Shown: one piece after another, positions 55,956 to 61,235 of the stretch
Numbering within the stretch: the first letter of the stretch is position 1
How the letters are laid out: every line of letters begins with the position of its first letter
Assembly (NCBI GenBank): GCA_014237715.1
Contig: JAAZZG010000001.1
Span: 121,080-185,079, forward strand
Direction: 5' to 3'
Origin: Acidimicrobiales bacterium
GTDB lineage: Bacteria; Actinomycetota; Acidimicrobiia; Acidimicrobiales; MedAcidi-G1
Length of the DNA: 64,000 nucleotides
The notes under the pieces: model-generated
Told to the model about the DNA's origin: nothing
Database searches by the model: none
The model's input: the letters and a program-made list of their open reading frames with translations, nothing else
Made by a program: the position numbers and the translations under genes

Positions 55956-57326
55956 TCAGGCGCCTGGGGCAAGGGTGGCGAGGATCTCGGCGAGGTCGTC
56001 GATGGTCGTCCGGGGGTTGACGATGCACACGCGCATGGCCGGCTCGCCGTCGAACGTGGTCGTGGTGAGCATGGCGGTCCCATCGGCCATCAGTCGGTCG
56101 CACCACGCCTGGTAGTCGTCCGCACCCCATCCATGGCGGCGGAAGGCCACGACCGACAGCTCGGGTTCGACGATCAGTTCCAGGTGGTCGGCAGCCACCA
56201 CGAGATCACGGGTGGCTCGGGCGACCGTCAGCGTCTCTTCGATGGCGTCCCGGTAGGCATCGGTCCCGTAGGTGGCGAGCGAAAACCAGAATGGCACTCC
56301 GCGGGCGCGGCGGGTCAATACGTGGGCGTGGTCGCACGGGTTGAACACCGTGTCGTCCATGAGTGGTTCGAGGTAGCCGGCGTGCTGGGTATGGGCCCGG
56401 CGGGCGGCCGCTGGCTCCCGGTAGACGAGAGCCGCACAATCGAAGGGGGAGAAGAGCCACTTGTGGGGATCCACGACAAGCGAATCGCAACGCTCCACCC
56501 CGTTGTAGAGGTTTCGGACCGAGGGTGCAGCCAAAGCCGCACCCCCGTAGGCGCCGTCGACATGGAACCAGGCGCCGGAAGCGGCACAGGCGTCGGCCAC
56601 CGAGTCGAGGGCGTCGACGATTCCCACGTTGGTGGTTCCGGCGGTGGCCACCACGGCGAACACTTCGGTCCCGGCGGGACGACCGTTGATGGTCGCGGTG
56701 ACGGCATCACCGGTGAGGCGCAGTTCGCCGTCAAGGTCGGCGAGGAGTACATCGACGTCCATGACACGCGCTGCCGAGTCGATCGAGGCGTGGGTGCTGG
56801 CCGATGCCACGACCGCCCAACGGATCGGCCGGTCCTGTCCGCCGGTCATTCGGGCCCGGTTGGCGACATCGCGGGCAGTGACCAGCGCGGACAGGTTCCC
56901 CATTGTCCCGCCGGTGACGAAGCAACCTCCGGCCGTCTCGGGCAGGCCGGCCAGGTCAGCGATCCAATCCAATGCCTGGTTCTCGGCGTAGACCATTCCG
57001 GCGCCGTCCAGCCAACTCGAACCCGCTACTGAAGAGGTGCCGACCACGAAGTCAAAGGCGCTGGCCGCCGGGGTGGGTGCACCGGCTACGAAGGCCAGAT
57101 AGCGGGGGTTGTCCGCCGCGATGTTGCTCGGGGCGAGGTGTTCGACATAGCGGCGGAGCGCCTCGGTGCCACCCAGTCCCTCCGCGGTGACGGTCTGGCC
57201 GACGAGGTCACGGAGTTCGTCGGCGCTCTTCGCCGATTGCATGGGAGGCTCGTCGGTCATCCGCTCGAGAGCGTGGTTGATGACAGCCCTGACGAGGGCC
57301 TCGTTGTCGGCGTCGAAGTCGTGCAC
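55956..57326 (-). CDS. PLP-dependent group II decarboxylase (aromatic-amino-acid/tyrosine/glutamate type)
   Basis: A 456-residue decarboxylase. GGCFVTGGTMGNLSALVTAR binds the PLP phosphate, SASTHASIDSAARVM contains the ring-stacking His, HVDGAYGGAAL the Asp, and DSLVVDPHKWLFSPFDCAAL the Schiff-base Lys (DPHKW). All catalytic residues are present. The family forms amines such as tryptamine, tyramine or phenethylamine; the substrate cannot be set from motifs. There is no amine transporter next to it. Confidence 0.9.
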   Translation of the reverse strand: MHDFDADNEALVRAVINHALERMTDEPPMQSAKSADELRDLVGQTVTAEGLGGTEALRRYVEHLAPSNIAADNPRYLAFVAGAPTPAASAFDFVVGTSSVAGSSWLDGAGMVYAENQALDWIADLAGLPETAGGCFVTGGTMGNLSALVTARDVANRARMTGGQDRPIRWAVVASASTHASIDSAARVMDVDVLLADLDGELRLTGDAVTATINGRPAGTEVFAVVATAGTTNVGIVDALDSVADACAASGAWFHVDGAYGGAALAAPSVRNLYNGVERCDSLVVDPHKWLFSPFDCAALVYREPAAARRAHTQHAGYLEPLMDDTVFNPCDHAHVLTRRARGVPFWFSLATYGTDAYRDAIEETLTVARATRDLVVAADHLELIVEPELSVVAFRRHGWGADDYQAWCDRLMADGTAMLTTTTFDGEPAMRVCIVNPRTTIDDLAEILATLAPGA

Positions 57327-57521: not shown

Positions 57522-57818
57522 TCAGACGTCGGGGTGGGCGGCGAGGTAGGTGACCTCGAGGCCGCCGGTCAGGTACGGGCCGAGTGCCTCGGGGAGGCCG
57601 GTCTCAATTCGCCATGCCAGATAGGCCTCATGGTCGGAGCGTTGGGCGAAGGTCTCCCAGAGGATCACGAAATCCGGGTCGTCGGCGTTGGAGAACACTT
57701 CGACGGCTTCACAGCCGTCCCAGGCCCGGGTCTCAACGAGGGCGCCCTTAAGTAATTCGAGGAGTTCCGGGCCCTTGCCCTCTTGGCAGGGAAATCCCAC
57801 GTGGATCGTCTGAGACAC
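57522..57818 (-). CDS. antibiotic-biosynthesis-monooxygenase (ABM) domain protein
   Basis: A 98-residue dimeric alpha+beta-barrel protein. IHVGFPCQEGKGPELLELLK begins it, then CEAVEVFSNADDPDFVILWE with FAQRSDHEAYLAWR is the usual ABM core. It may act as a small cofactor-free monooxygenase or a heme/quinone-binding protein. The gaps around it (57327-57521 and 57819-57932) show no further gene. Confidence 0.82.
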   Translation of the reverse strand: MSQTIHVGFPCQEGKGPELLELLKGALVETRAWDGCEAVEVFSNADDPDFVILWETFAQRSDHEAYLAWRIETGLPEALGPYLTGGLEVTYLAAHPDV

Positions 57819-57932: not shown

Positions 57933-59426
57933 TCAGATCCGGCTCAGCGTGTGCCGGCTGCCGTCGACGATGAGGTCGAGATCGACGGCCCCGCCTAAGA
58001 CGTCGAGGGACGTGGCGGAACCGTCGGAGCACATCAGGGCCCATGAACCGTCGGTGGGTAGACCGGAGACCCGAACAGACGTACATGTTCCAGAGAGCGA
58101 GGCGTTTCGAGGTTGAGCGGCGAGATGGAGGACCGCTCCGTCCCACCAGGCCTCGCTGAGCGCGACGTCGGGGAAGTTCACTCCGGTGATCGTCGGTTCG
58201 GTGAACCGGTCGACGGGATTCTCGGCGAATATCCGACTCCAGGCACCCGGTTGGCATACCCAGCCGGCCATGACCCTGGCGTTCAACTGACCCCGCGGGT
58301 GTGGCTCGCCGAGTCCGAATCCGAACGTGAACTCGCCGAGGTCGTGGTCCCAGGTCGGTTCGTGGATGTCGTCGAGGACCGCCCACATCCGCTCGCGGAT
58401 CCTTCCGTTGTCAAACTCGCTGGTCTGCATGGCCAACAACGAGGCGAAGTTGGGATCCTCGAGTCCGACCGGAGTGGCGTCGCCGTCCAGCCCGGTGAGA
58501 GCCACGGCCATTTCCCAGACGGAACGCGCAACGTCGGGTCGTTGTGGTGCTAGATACCAGACTGGTGCCAGGAGCCCCATGGGGCTGGGCACATGCTCGT
58601 CGACCACCGGGTCGTAGTAGAGGTCCATGGCTACGGGTCGGCCGTCCTGCCATGTCACATAGTTGGCCGTGGCGTGCTCCCACCACGGGTCGAACACCCG
58701 GTGGTGGTCGGTGCCCATGAGCGTGTCGTGCAGCCTCAGACCGAGGCCGGCGCCGCTTAGTCAATAGGGCCAAATCTTGGTGTTCTCACAGTGCACGCCG
58801 ATCGGTTGATTCCTCCATTGGTCAGCTAGATGGGAGGAGATGGCGGAGTGGGTCCAAGTGAACGTGTGCTCGCCGTCACGGATCATGTCGAATGGCTGGT
58901 TCCAGCGGTCATCGCCGGTGACGTGGCGGTGGAGCCCGAGCAGTAGGCCGAAGAAGCCCTTGAAGAACAACATGCCGTCCGCCGCTATGGGATCCATTTG
59001 GATGCCGTACGGCTCGATGCCGTTGGCCGTCCAACCGGGCACGTCGTAGTCGCCCCACAGGGGCTCGGGCACGAGCGGGCGCCAACCCTCTGGGTAGCGG
59101 GAGCGGTCGGGGTCTGGGCCGAACTGGGTTAACCAGTCCGAGGCAGCCCACCACGATGTGTGGCGCTCGACCAACTCGTCGAGGATTTCAGCGTAGGGCT
59201 CCCGCCATGCCGGGGTGCGGTCGGCCATGAGGGCCACGGCGTAACTGGAATCGACGAGGTCGAACCGGTGCCACGACAGCATCGGTTCGCCGGTGCGGTC
59301 GTCCCAGTGGGGGTGAGGTTGACCGTTGCGACTCCAGTCGTCAGGGGCGGTGGCCTTGCGATGCAGGTATCGCAGCCAACCCAGTGACCGGTCGTCGAGC
59401 GGGGTGGGTGTCGAAGTCTCGCTCAT
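57933..59426 (-). CDS. linalool dehydratase-isomerase-like selenoprotein, Sec at residue 222
   Basis: Two frame-matched halves separated by one TGA (58761-58763) read as one 497-residue protein of the Ldi type. Before the TGA: DGEHTFTWTHSAISSHLADQ, then GVHC-ENTKIWPY; after it: LSGAGLGLRLHDTLMGTDHH, then RVFDPWWEHATANYV. In LDI the active-site cysteines (C171 and C180 in the Castellaniella enzyme, from memory) are nine apart in a CE-N-type motif; here C213 and U222 have the same spacing, so Sec replaces the second. A SECIS hairpin lies at exactly the fdhF spacing. ATG overlaps the DDAH-like stop (ATGA). Probable role: (de)hydration of a terpenoid or other alcohol. No signal peptide. Confidence 0.87.
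58731..58749 (-). promoter_or_regulatory. bacterial SECIS-like hairpin for the LDI-like selenoprotein
   Basis: Stem CGGCCUC/GAGGCUG (one G-U pair) closes loop GGUCU. The stem begins 11 bases after the TGA and the loop G and U fall at bases 20 and 21 after it, the same spacing as in the Escherichia coli fdhF SECIS (recalled from the literature). The 11-mer CTCGGTCTGAG is shared with the hairpin of the AhpD-like gene at a different codon offset from its TGA. Confidence 0.85.
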
Positions 59427-60196
59427 GTGGCGCTCACCTCGAAGAGCAGACTGCAGCAGGTCAGGGCACCCTCGGCCTTGGCCAGTTCGGACACCTCGAC
59501 GGTGCGCACGGTGAATCCGGCGGCAGAGATGCGTTCCGCTGTGTGGGGGAAGGCGGCGGCGACCAGCACGGTGCCACCAACCCTAACGACGTTGGCCGCG
59601 TCGGGTTCTGACGGATCGACCGAGATGCAGCGCCGGTCGCCCAGGTCGCCAACGTCGACCCGGTCGGGATTGAGGACCAGGGTGTCGTCGTCCAGGGCGG
59701 TAACCGCCGACTTGAGGTGCAGGCAGCCGCGGACGGCGGTTCCGTGGACGCGGTAGCCGTGGTCGCCGACGATGGTCCGGAACTGGTCTATGGCTGCCAG
59801 GTCGCTCCGACTGGTGATGCCGATGTGGACGTCGCGACCGGCAACCAGCACGTCGCCACCGTCGAGGATTCCCGGCGAGGTGATGCGAGCCAGGAGTCGG
59901 TACGGCGCGAGCGTCCGTTCGATGCTGGAGCGTTCGTCACGCCGGGATTCGGCGCCGGGCCGGGTGATGACGGCCACCTCATCAAGCACGACGGCCACGT
60001 CCTCGACGAACACCGAGTCGGGCAGGCCGGGTTCGACCGGTAGGCGCTCAATGCGGCAACCCAGATCGGCCAAGGCCGCCTCGTAGGCGGTGTGCTGTTC
60101 CCGGGCGGTGTCGACGTCGATCGGGGTGCGTTCGAGGTGGGTCAGCTCACAGTCGGCAATGGCCGGGCTGACCCCCCGGGTGACGGCGATGAGCAT
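59423..60196 (-). CDS. dimethylargininase-like (DDAH) amidinotransferase-superfamily enzyme
   Basis: A 257-residue guanidino-modifying enzyme. LPDSVFVEDVAVVLDEVAVI (substrate Asp/Glu), SPGILDGGDVLVAGRDVHIG, the catalytic His in GCLHLKSAVTALDDDTLVL, and the C-terminal nucleophile Cys in GALTCCSLLFE match the DDAH branch, which hydrolyses methylated arginines to citrulline plus methylamines. Start MLIAVTRGVSPAIADCELTH. It is the middle gene of an operon with an amidohydrolase and the LDI-like selenoprotein. Confidence 0.88.
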   Translation of the reverse strand: MLIAVTRGVSPAIADCELTHLERTPIDVDTAREQHTAYEAALADLGCRIERLPVEPGLPDSVFVEDVAVVLDEVAVITRPGAESRRDERSSIERTLAPYRLLARITSPGILDGGDVLVAGRDVHIGITSRSDLAAIDQFRTIVGDHGYRVHGTAVRGCLHLKSAVTALDDDTLVLNPDRVDVGDLGDRRCISVDPSEPDAANVVRVGGTVLVAAAFPHTAERISAAGFTVRTVEVSELAKAEGALTCCSLLFEVSAT

Positions 60197-60221
60197 GTGG
60201 GTCGGCGTCCTGCTTGCGTGG

Positions 60222-61235
60222 TCAGAGTGCGTAGACGCGGGAGGCGGTGCCGGAGAACATCGCGGAACGTTCGTTATCGGTGAAGTCGCCGACCATCTTC
60301 TTGAAGGCGTTGTAGAGCACGTGGTACGAGACCGACACCCTGTCGACCGGGAAGTTGCTTTCAAACATGCACCGCTCGGGCCCAAAGCAGTCGATGGTGT
60401 GCAGGTAGTGGTCGCGGTGGGCGGCCACCACCTCGTCAGACGTCGGCGGACAGTCGGCAAGGTGCCAGTCAAAGCCGTTGTCGGGCATGGCCAGGCCGCC
60501 CAGCTTGGCCACCACGTTGGGGCAGCGGGCTGCCTCGGCAATGTCGATCTTCCACTGCTCGAAGATCTCGTCGCGCTGAGTCGCCCAGGGTCCGACGCCC
60601 AACGGGGTGCCGAAGTGGTCGAGGATGATCGTGGTGTCGGGGGCTGAACGGGCCAGATCGACGAAGTCCGGGAGTTGGTAGTGGTAGTGCCAGCTCTCAT
60701 AGGTGTACCCGTGGCGGCCCAGCAGGCGAACTCCGCTCCGGAACCCCTCGTCTGCGGCCAGCCCCGACGGTGCTCGCCCGGGAATAGTTAGCACCTCGGG
60801 GTGGGTGGGGTGCGAGATGGCGTGACGGATTCCCCGGAATAGACCGTTGCCGGCTGTCACGTGGGCATCGAGCACTTCGGACAGTAGATCCCCTAGCCGT
60901 AGGTCGGCGTAGGCCACGATGCCGGCGATGCGTGCACCTGGTCCCGCTTCGCTCTCGGCGGCCAGACCGGCCACGAATTCAGTCTCGCCGACCGGACGGA
61001 GGTGGTCCGGCCCGTCGTCGCGGTACTCGGCGTGGCATTCGATGAAGACGGTCCTGGTGACCCGATGGCCCGATCCGGTGTCGGCCCAGAGGTTTTCCAG
61101 CACGTAGTCGGCGCCGGGGATCTGCCACAGGTGGTGGTGGGGGTCGACGATCTCCAGTTCAGGATCAACGATCTCCTCATCGACCTGGGCATGCCATTCG
61201 GGCCGGTCGAAGGCGAGGGGCTCGCGGTCTGCCAT
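60222..61235 (-). CDS. amidohydrolase-2-family (TIM-barrel) hydrolase
   Basis: A 337-residue metal-dependent hydrolase. The HxH metal motif is EIVDPHHHLWQI, with IILDHFGTPLG (His) and MFESNFPVDRVSVSYHV (Asp) completing the site. The layout matches fuconolactonase/pyrone-dicarboxylate-lactonase-type enzymes, so a lactone is a likely substrate. It is the first gene of the three-gene operon with the DDAH-like and LDI-like genes; the gap to the next gene is 25 bases. Confidence 0.87.
   Translation of the reverse strand: MADREPLAFDRPEWHAQVDEEIVDPELEIVDPHHHLWQIPGADYVLENLWADTGSGHRVTRTVFIECHAEYRDDGPDHLRPVGETEFVAGLAAESEAGPGARIAGIVAYADLRLGDLLSEVLDAHVTAGNGLFRGIRHAISHPTHPEVLTIPGRAPSGLAADEGFRSGVRLLGRHGYTYESWHYHYQLPDFVDLARSAPDTTIILDHFGTPLGVGPWATQRDEIFEQWKIDIAEAARCPNVVAKLGGLAMPDNGFDWHLADCPPTSDEVVAAHRDHYLHTIDCFGPERCMFESNFPVDRVSVSYHVLYNAFKKMVGDFTDNERSAMFSGTASRVYAL

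Follow-up and report, generated by a model that had tools for sequence, protein, structure and literature searches.

A predicted selenocysteine codon in a linalool dehydratase-isomerase-like gene of an Acidimicrobiales bacterium

Introduction

Does an in-frame TGA end the protein in which it stands, or is it decoded as selenocysteine (Sec), and what would selenium do there? The question is raised by a gene in a stretch of 64,000 nucleotides from an Acidimicrobiales bacterium (GCA_014237715.1, contig JAAZZG010000001.1, positions 121,080 to 185,079), referred to below as the window. The gene encodes a relative of linalool dehydratase-isomerase (LDI), and a single TGA splits its frame. Sequence comparison indicates that this UGA is almost certainly decoded as Sec. 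For the reading as a whole, i.e., a 497-residue LDI relative in which UGA specifies Sec at a Cys column, likely as an active-site selenolate, we estimate a probability of about 0.85.

Results and Discussion

Reading Frame and Codons at Positions 213 and 222

The original prediction, made from the DNA alone, gave the correct coordinates for a 497-residue frame split by one TGA; the strand, which it left unstated, is minus (Table 1). Readthrough translation of 59426-57936 yields 497 residues with TGA at residue 222 as the sole internal stop, and annotation with table 11 returns two open reading frames (ORFs), 59426-58761 (221 amino acids) and 58718-57933 (261 amino acids). The stretch from the TGA to the next ATG agrees with the homologue consensus and continues the same protein, as had been proposed.

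A search of 5.77 billion proteins, in which scoring was confined to the 7996 candidates with the most words in common, yielded 1000 homologues. Among the matches listed, all 120 full-length homologues carry Cys at column 222 and at column 213. Cys-type and Sec-type proteins are mostly 50-55% identical and have the motif CENTK[IV]WP around the site in common. The protein database displays no U, so TGA forms are visible there only as pieces, and the codon at the end of a piece is not visible. The N-terminal piece of the window protein retrieved 433 proteins; among the 120 listed, 109 stop exactly one residue short of 222 (103 recognized by a script pattern and six by reading the tails), three stop one residue short of 213, seven run through with Cys at both sites, and one is of another kind. 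With the N-terminal piece of a relative carrying TGA at both positions (L029), 297 proteins were retrieved, and the 120 listed comprise 83 ending before 222, 33 ending before 213, two running through and two others. For the 155 proteins first met in one or other of the two N-terminal-piece searches, the respective numbers are 113, 33, six and three. One protein cut off before site 222, P0190, bears the source name Flavobacterium sp.; if this name is correct, the Sec form has spread to Bacteroidota.

The codons themselves were surveyed at the DNA level. A scan of genome_contigs (84,980 species), whose patterns were taken from the window protein and therefore favour near relatives, found 20 loci; 19 span the site, all with TGA at 222 and five of these also at 213. 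Among 298 genomes of the same order, 25 had matches, and the site was spanned in 20 (16 with TGA, two Cys/Cys and two Ser/His). Among 396 genomes of the phylum there were four matches, one of them from a new genome (G526) with the motif and TGA. Matches in five of the 25 order genomes, and distant ones in G322 and G412, were left out, the site not being spanned or the motif missing. The 41 locus rows that have the motif, counted with repeats, carry at 213/222 the codon pairs TGC/TGA (16), TGT/TGA (8), TGA/TGA (13), TGC/TGC (2) and AGC/CAC (2). Position 222 is thus TGA in 37 rows, or in 30 of the 34 distinct genes, the window's included, which comprise 20 Cys/Sec, 10 Sec/Sec, two Cys/Cys and two Ser/His genes. 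Identical sequences were dropped before the distinct-gene, hairpin and codon-constraint counts, and L067 (the same gene as L064) was dropped from the first and last of these. Both Cys and TGA homologues, which the original prediction had suggested looking for, therefore exist.

These data bear on the view that the UGA is a true stop, the gene being split or a pseudogene, or that it stems from a sequencing error. Pieces that end at this codon, in standard ORF calls as in public protein sets, speak for this view. Against it stand the recurrence of TGA in most of the distinct genes, with neither TAA nor TAG at the internal site in any of the 41 rows (their terminal stops being TGA 29, TAG 7 and TAA 5), and the common end point of the database pieces. 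Purifying selection also acts 3' of the site: dN is below dS in five of six pairs with the window (dN/dS values 0.041/0.179 for L018, 0.127/0.726 for L019, 0.200/0.762 for L020, 0.240/1.619 for L022 and 0.261/1.273 for L025), the sixth, L023, not being computable. A true stop is accordingly extremely improbable.

A tree was built with 44 homologues, thinned from the 112 of the 120 that have at least 480 amino acids. Constraining the 32 Sec-type and Ser/His rows to one group costs 31.5 log units (p-AU 0.118); the tree thus suggests separate gains of Sec within the family, and a single origin is not rejected. L051 (Cys213/Sec222) falls among the rows with two TGA codons, and the p-AU for those rows as one clade is 0.286, so a reversal from Sec to Cys in L051 is not established. 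The bins to which L032, L034 and L035 belong bear the names Myxococcales, Alphaproteobacteria and UBP10.

Selenocysteine Machinery

The machinery for Sec decoding, another point raised originally, is complete in the host genome, which encodes tRNA-Sec (67.5 bits; called by ARAGORN as tRNA-SeC with anticodon tca), selA, selB and selD. The host selD (L016, G000:C11:80011-80934) has one in-frame TGA near its N-terminus, and SelD is itself predicted to be a selenoprotein, of a known type.

Co-occurrence was judged by selA because the tRNA-Sec profile is unspecific near 47 bits: scores of about 47 bits are also reached on ordinary tRNAs (48 bits on tRNA-Ser), with the cut-off at 47. The selA gene is present in all 16 order genomes with a Sec-type gene, in G526 (whose tRNA-Sec profile match of 45 bits lies near the range where ordinary tRNAs also match) and in all 19 genomes of the genome_contigs loci, whose species partly overlap with the order set. 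Within the 298 order genomes as a whole, 185 match selA at E <= 0.001 and 175 lie above the cut-off. It was not found in two Cys/Cys genomes, which are 89% and 77% complete, so that the absence is uncertain; both Ser/His genomes carry it.

The same findings bear on whether UGA is read as some other amino acid, either through code reassignment or by a near-cognate tRNA. The open frame alone favours this, while the Sec gene and its upstream neighbour both terminate in TGA, the genome has tRNA-Sec with SelA, SelB and SelD, and the homologues carry Cys at the column, not Trp or Gly. We regard such a reading as about as improbable as a true stop.

A Candidate Hairpin Downstream of the UGA

Beginning 18 nucleotides (nt) 3' of the TGA is a candidate apical hairpin of a bacterial selenocysteine insertion sequence (SECIS), with a 6-bp stem (GGCCUC/GAGGCU) and the loop GGUCU. 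In Escherichia coli fdhF the TGA is likewise followed by 18 nt and GGTCT, so the likeness in loop and distance noted originally is real. The limits printed for bacterial SECIS elements in PMC13188914 are a loop of 3-9 nt, a stem of 4-16 bp, G in loop position 1 or 2, a spacing of 16-37 nt and a minimum free energy of at most -7.5 kcal/mol. The window hairpin lies inside these printed limits (a 5-nt loop starting with G, a 6-bp stem and a spacing of 18 nt), with -11.6 kcal/mol for its 27-nt core (L038) and -17.8 for 45 nt.

Across 27 distinct rows, the six stem pairs are standard in 162 of 162 cells, and one pair varies on both sides (C-G 18, U-A 6, U-G 2, G-C 1). Codon use is the strongest evidence for the hairpin; folding energy alone does not single it out. 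Of 122 columns in which the amino acid is the same in all 30 Sec-type genes or in all but one, the four with the tightest codon constraint are Leu228 CTC, Gly229 GGT and Leu230 CTG (each 30/30) and Arg231 AGG/AGA (29/29). In the same genes AGG and AGA make up only 7% and 3% of Arg codons. Arg231 is moreover found in 29 of 30 Sec genes vs. 11 of the 120 listed Cys homologues, 84 of which have Gln at this residue, and is a footprint of the RNA element. The GGUCU hairpin is not formed in L045 and L048, the two Cys/Cys genes whose DNA was examined. In Rfam nothing at the site reaches the gathering score, the only match at E <= 10 being unrelated (10.7 bits).

Relationship to LDI and the Role of Selenium

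The window protein belongs to the Ldi family, as originally supposed: it scores 60.1 bits against the PF18566 profile, with a curated cut-off of 26.1, and there is no NCBIfam match for it or for P0002. Cys213 aligns with LDI Cys171 and U222 with LDI Cys180, so that U222 does fall on the second active-site Cys and the nine-residue spacing is kept. The predicted model matches the (alpha/alpha)6 barrel of the solved LDI structure over model range 5-410. LDI Asp39 and Tyr45 lie outside the sequence alignment; D56 and Y62 are invariant in 55 sequences and have the same spacing of six. The original identification as LDI-like thus stands for fold and family, but the protein is not LDI proper, its counterpart of LDI His129 being Phe. 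In LDI, according to PMC6013536 and PMC12455561, the cysteines act in acid/base or covalent thioterpene catalysis.

In the mechanism that we propose, the GGUCU hairpin would recruit SelB with Sec-tRNA for insertion of Sec222, the chain would fold into an (alpha/alpha)6 barrel in which Cys213 and Sec222 point towards the substrate, and the reaction would be the addition, removal or shift of a hydroxyl group, the substrate being unsaturated and perhaps terpenoid-like. For hydro-lyase/isomerase-type chemistry of this kind we see roughly even odds. Selenols, whose pKa is below that of thiols, are largely ionised at neutral pH; we therefore favour a selenolate that acts as nucleophile or base at 222 and is partnered by Cys213. 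Of the roles first suggested for the selenol, base or nucleophile can be retained, while that of a strong acid is less natural for a mostly ionised group. The likely gain would be that selenium allows an oxygen-sensitive site to be re-reduced after oxidation.

A more modest view is that Sec is only an oxidation-proof substitute for Cys, the chemistry of the Cys homologues being kept and no catalytic role added. The motif and the identity common to both forms agree with this, as does the report, in PMC6013536, that LDI is oxygen-sensitive and requires a reducing agent. Some lineages, on the other hand, replace the second catalytic Cys by Sec too, and Sec use is thought to be costly. We consider this view somewhat doubtful.

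The main rival on chemistry is a redox role, in which a selenylsulfide between Cys213 and Sec222, or a diselenide where some relatives have two Sec, would form reversibly and the barrel would reduce a peroxide, a disulfide or another electrophile. Most of the selenoproteins characterised so far are, according to PMC13188914, of thioredoxin-like type and carry a redox motif; the pair is close in sequence, a third Cys (C211) is present in 107 of the 120 listed homologues, and LDI His129 is missing. The LDI-like fold, however, is a cofactor-free hydro-lyase/isomerase barrel, residue 211 is Val in the window protein as well as in 12 of the 20 Cys/Sec rows, and none of 20 scanned neighbour proteins matches a thioredoxin family. 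Two of these neighbours, at L034 and L032, do match pyridine-nucleotide-disulphide-oxidoreductase models, but beside flavin monooxygenase (FMO-like) and DAO matches, respectively. We thus believe that a redox role is unlikely and that LDI-like chemistry with a selenolate is to be preferred.

Relatives With TGA at Both Catalytic Positions

The original picture of a single Sec beside Cys213 fits the window; it did not foresee relatives with TGA at both cysteines, found in ten distinct genes (rows L029, L030, L031, L033, L036, L046, L047, L049, L050 and L052-L055). In these, two non-overlapping hairpins can be drawn 3' of the first TGA: a second candidate hairpin of 7 bp, 14-36 nt 3' of that codon, with the second TGA in its loop, and then the GGUCU hairpin. 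All seven pairs form in nine of nine distinct double-TGA rows, in one of 17 Cys/Sec rows (L051, which lies inside the double-TGA group), in neither of two Cys/Cys rows and in one of two Ser/His rows. All 10 double-TGA genes use GGA as codon 225, and 16 of the 20 single-TGA genes use GGC.

Several observations weaken this second hairpin. Five of its seven pairs are invariant, 68 of 500 shuffles match the joint score of both helices, L050 and L055 lack G at the start of the loop, and the L055 fold, at -7.0 kcal/mol, is above the printed -7.5 limit. Since there is too little variation for covariation support, tandem decoding is offered here as a hypothesis. In its full and tentative form, which we hold to be somewhat less likely than not, both cysteines of a non-redox catalytic pair would be replaced by Sec in an LDI-like C-O lyase/isomerase with single- and double-Sec forms. 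The loop of the first of two tandem hairpins would hold the second UGA, and translating one Sec codon would thereby open the next element.

Points Against the Proposed Reading

A number of results weigh against the reading of the window gene given above. As regards the RNA element, three of the six stem pairs are invariant across the 27 rows; the fold is ordinary in the single window sequence (z -1.20, 26 of 200 shuffles as good); the 45-nt minimum-energy fold differs in four of 27 rows (L026, L028, L029 and L043); and the 27-nt cores of L026, L028 and L043, at -7.1 kcal/mol, are above the printed limit. As regards the machinery, two 71-nt matches to the tRNA-Sec profile occur in the Cys/Cys genome G194 at 47.5 bits, barely above the cut-off, and in L056 and L057 (from genomes G152 and G040, which carry selA) the two sites are occupied by Ser and His. 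Concerning function, LDI His129 is replaced by Phe158 in the window and by Phe (107) or Trp (13) among the 120 listed homologues, so that LDI chemistry is not simply transferable; and gene neighbourhoods vary from clade to clade and point to no substrate. L056 and L057 sit on a long branch among the double-TGA rows, and their activity has perhaps changed or been lost.

Genomic Neighbourhood

The features of the locus are listed in Table 1. The Sec gene is probably in an operon with the arginine-deiminase-like gene and the amidohydrolase gene upstream, given the overlap of start and stop codons. Twenty chosen neighbour proteins were scanned with Pfam, three of them without a match, and no consistent substrate emerged from this set. 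In the L026-L028 clade, the Sec gene is flanked on one side by 3-hydroxyisobutyrate-dehydrogenase-like and acyl-CoA-dehydrogenase genes and on the other by genes for a phosphotriesterase-family protein and an FlK-type thioesterase (Pfam assignments from L027, with the same clusters in L026 and L028), a cluster that differs from the window's. The only tRNA detected within the window is tRNA-Val (cac), at 1739-1813.

Table 1. Coordinates, in window numbering, of the Sec-type gene, its special codons, the candidate hairpin and adjacent genes.
Feature	Position	Strand	Remarks
Sec-type Ldi-like gene, 497 codons + stop	59426-57933	minus	ATG 59426-59424, terminal TGA 57935-57933
In-frame TGA, predicted Sec codon (U222)	58763-58761	minus	At position of LDI Cys180
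TGT codon of Cys213	58788..58790	minus	At LDI Cys171 position; TGA in double-TGA relatives
Candidate bacterial SECIS apical hairpin	58732..58748	minus	Arms 58748-58743 and 58737-58732; loop GGUCU 58742-58738
Upstream gene, arginine-deiminase-like (PF02274)	59423..60220	minus	Stop overlaps Sec gene ATG (ATGA)
Upstream gene, Amidohydro_2 (PF04909)	60222..61235	minus	Pfam match
Downstream gene, ABM domain (PF03992)	57522..57818	minus	Pfam match
Downstream gene, pyridoxal-dependent decarboxylase (PF00282)	55956..57326	minus	Pfam match

Novelty and Comparison With Known Systems

No described LDI selenoprotein was known to the author of the original prediction, and none turned up in the open-access literature searched: no open-access paper joining linalool dehydratase with selenocysteine was found (subscription papers, preprints and supplementary files were outside the search), the Ldi family is not in the table of 119 prokaryotic selenoprotein families in the 2026 inventory PMC13188914, and term searches of PMC12013277, PMC9312934 and PMC5029168 showed no LDI-type selenoprotein. 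If the Sec reading holds, as is very likely, this would be a selenoprotein family absent from that inventory table. It may have been overlooked because the listed public proteins consist of the piece before the UGA only, and most are unnamed.

If true, Sec would occur in a cofactor-free hydro-lyase/isomerase barrel, beyond the thioredoxin-like and metal-redox proteins that account for most Sec characterised so far. The naturally occurring series of Cys/Cys, Cys/Sec and Sec/Sec, together with Ser/His, at the same positions would make the question of why selenium is used testable in one family, and the Sec residue could help to decide between covalent and acid/base catalysis in LDI-type enzymes.

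Among known systems, the two-Sec selenoproteins tabulated in PMC13188914 (such as the UxxU and UxxxxU types) have two Sec per chain, as predicted for the double-TGA relatives; none of the motifs printed there has its Sec residues nine apart and none is in the Ldi family. LDI (LinD) of Castellaniella defragrans, also in PF18566, is 16% identical to the window protein, which differs in having predicted Sec for Cys180 and Phe158 for His129 and in a C-terminal strand-rich part of its 497 residues beyond the aligned range. Closer are the Cys-type Ldi-domain proteins with the motif CENTK[IV]WP.C, some from Acidimicrobiia by source name (P0086 and P0101); these differ in carrying Cys at both sites, mostly Gln at residue 231 and, in the two genes with DNA, no GGUCU hairpin. 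Finally, unlike FdhF-type bacterial selenoproteins, the window family is not an oxidoreductase by homology, while with FdhF of E. coli as the yardstick for SelB/SECIS-dependent decoding, the UGA, the 18-nt spacing, the GGUCU loop and the set of SelA, SelB, SelD and tRNA-Sec are alike.
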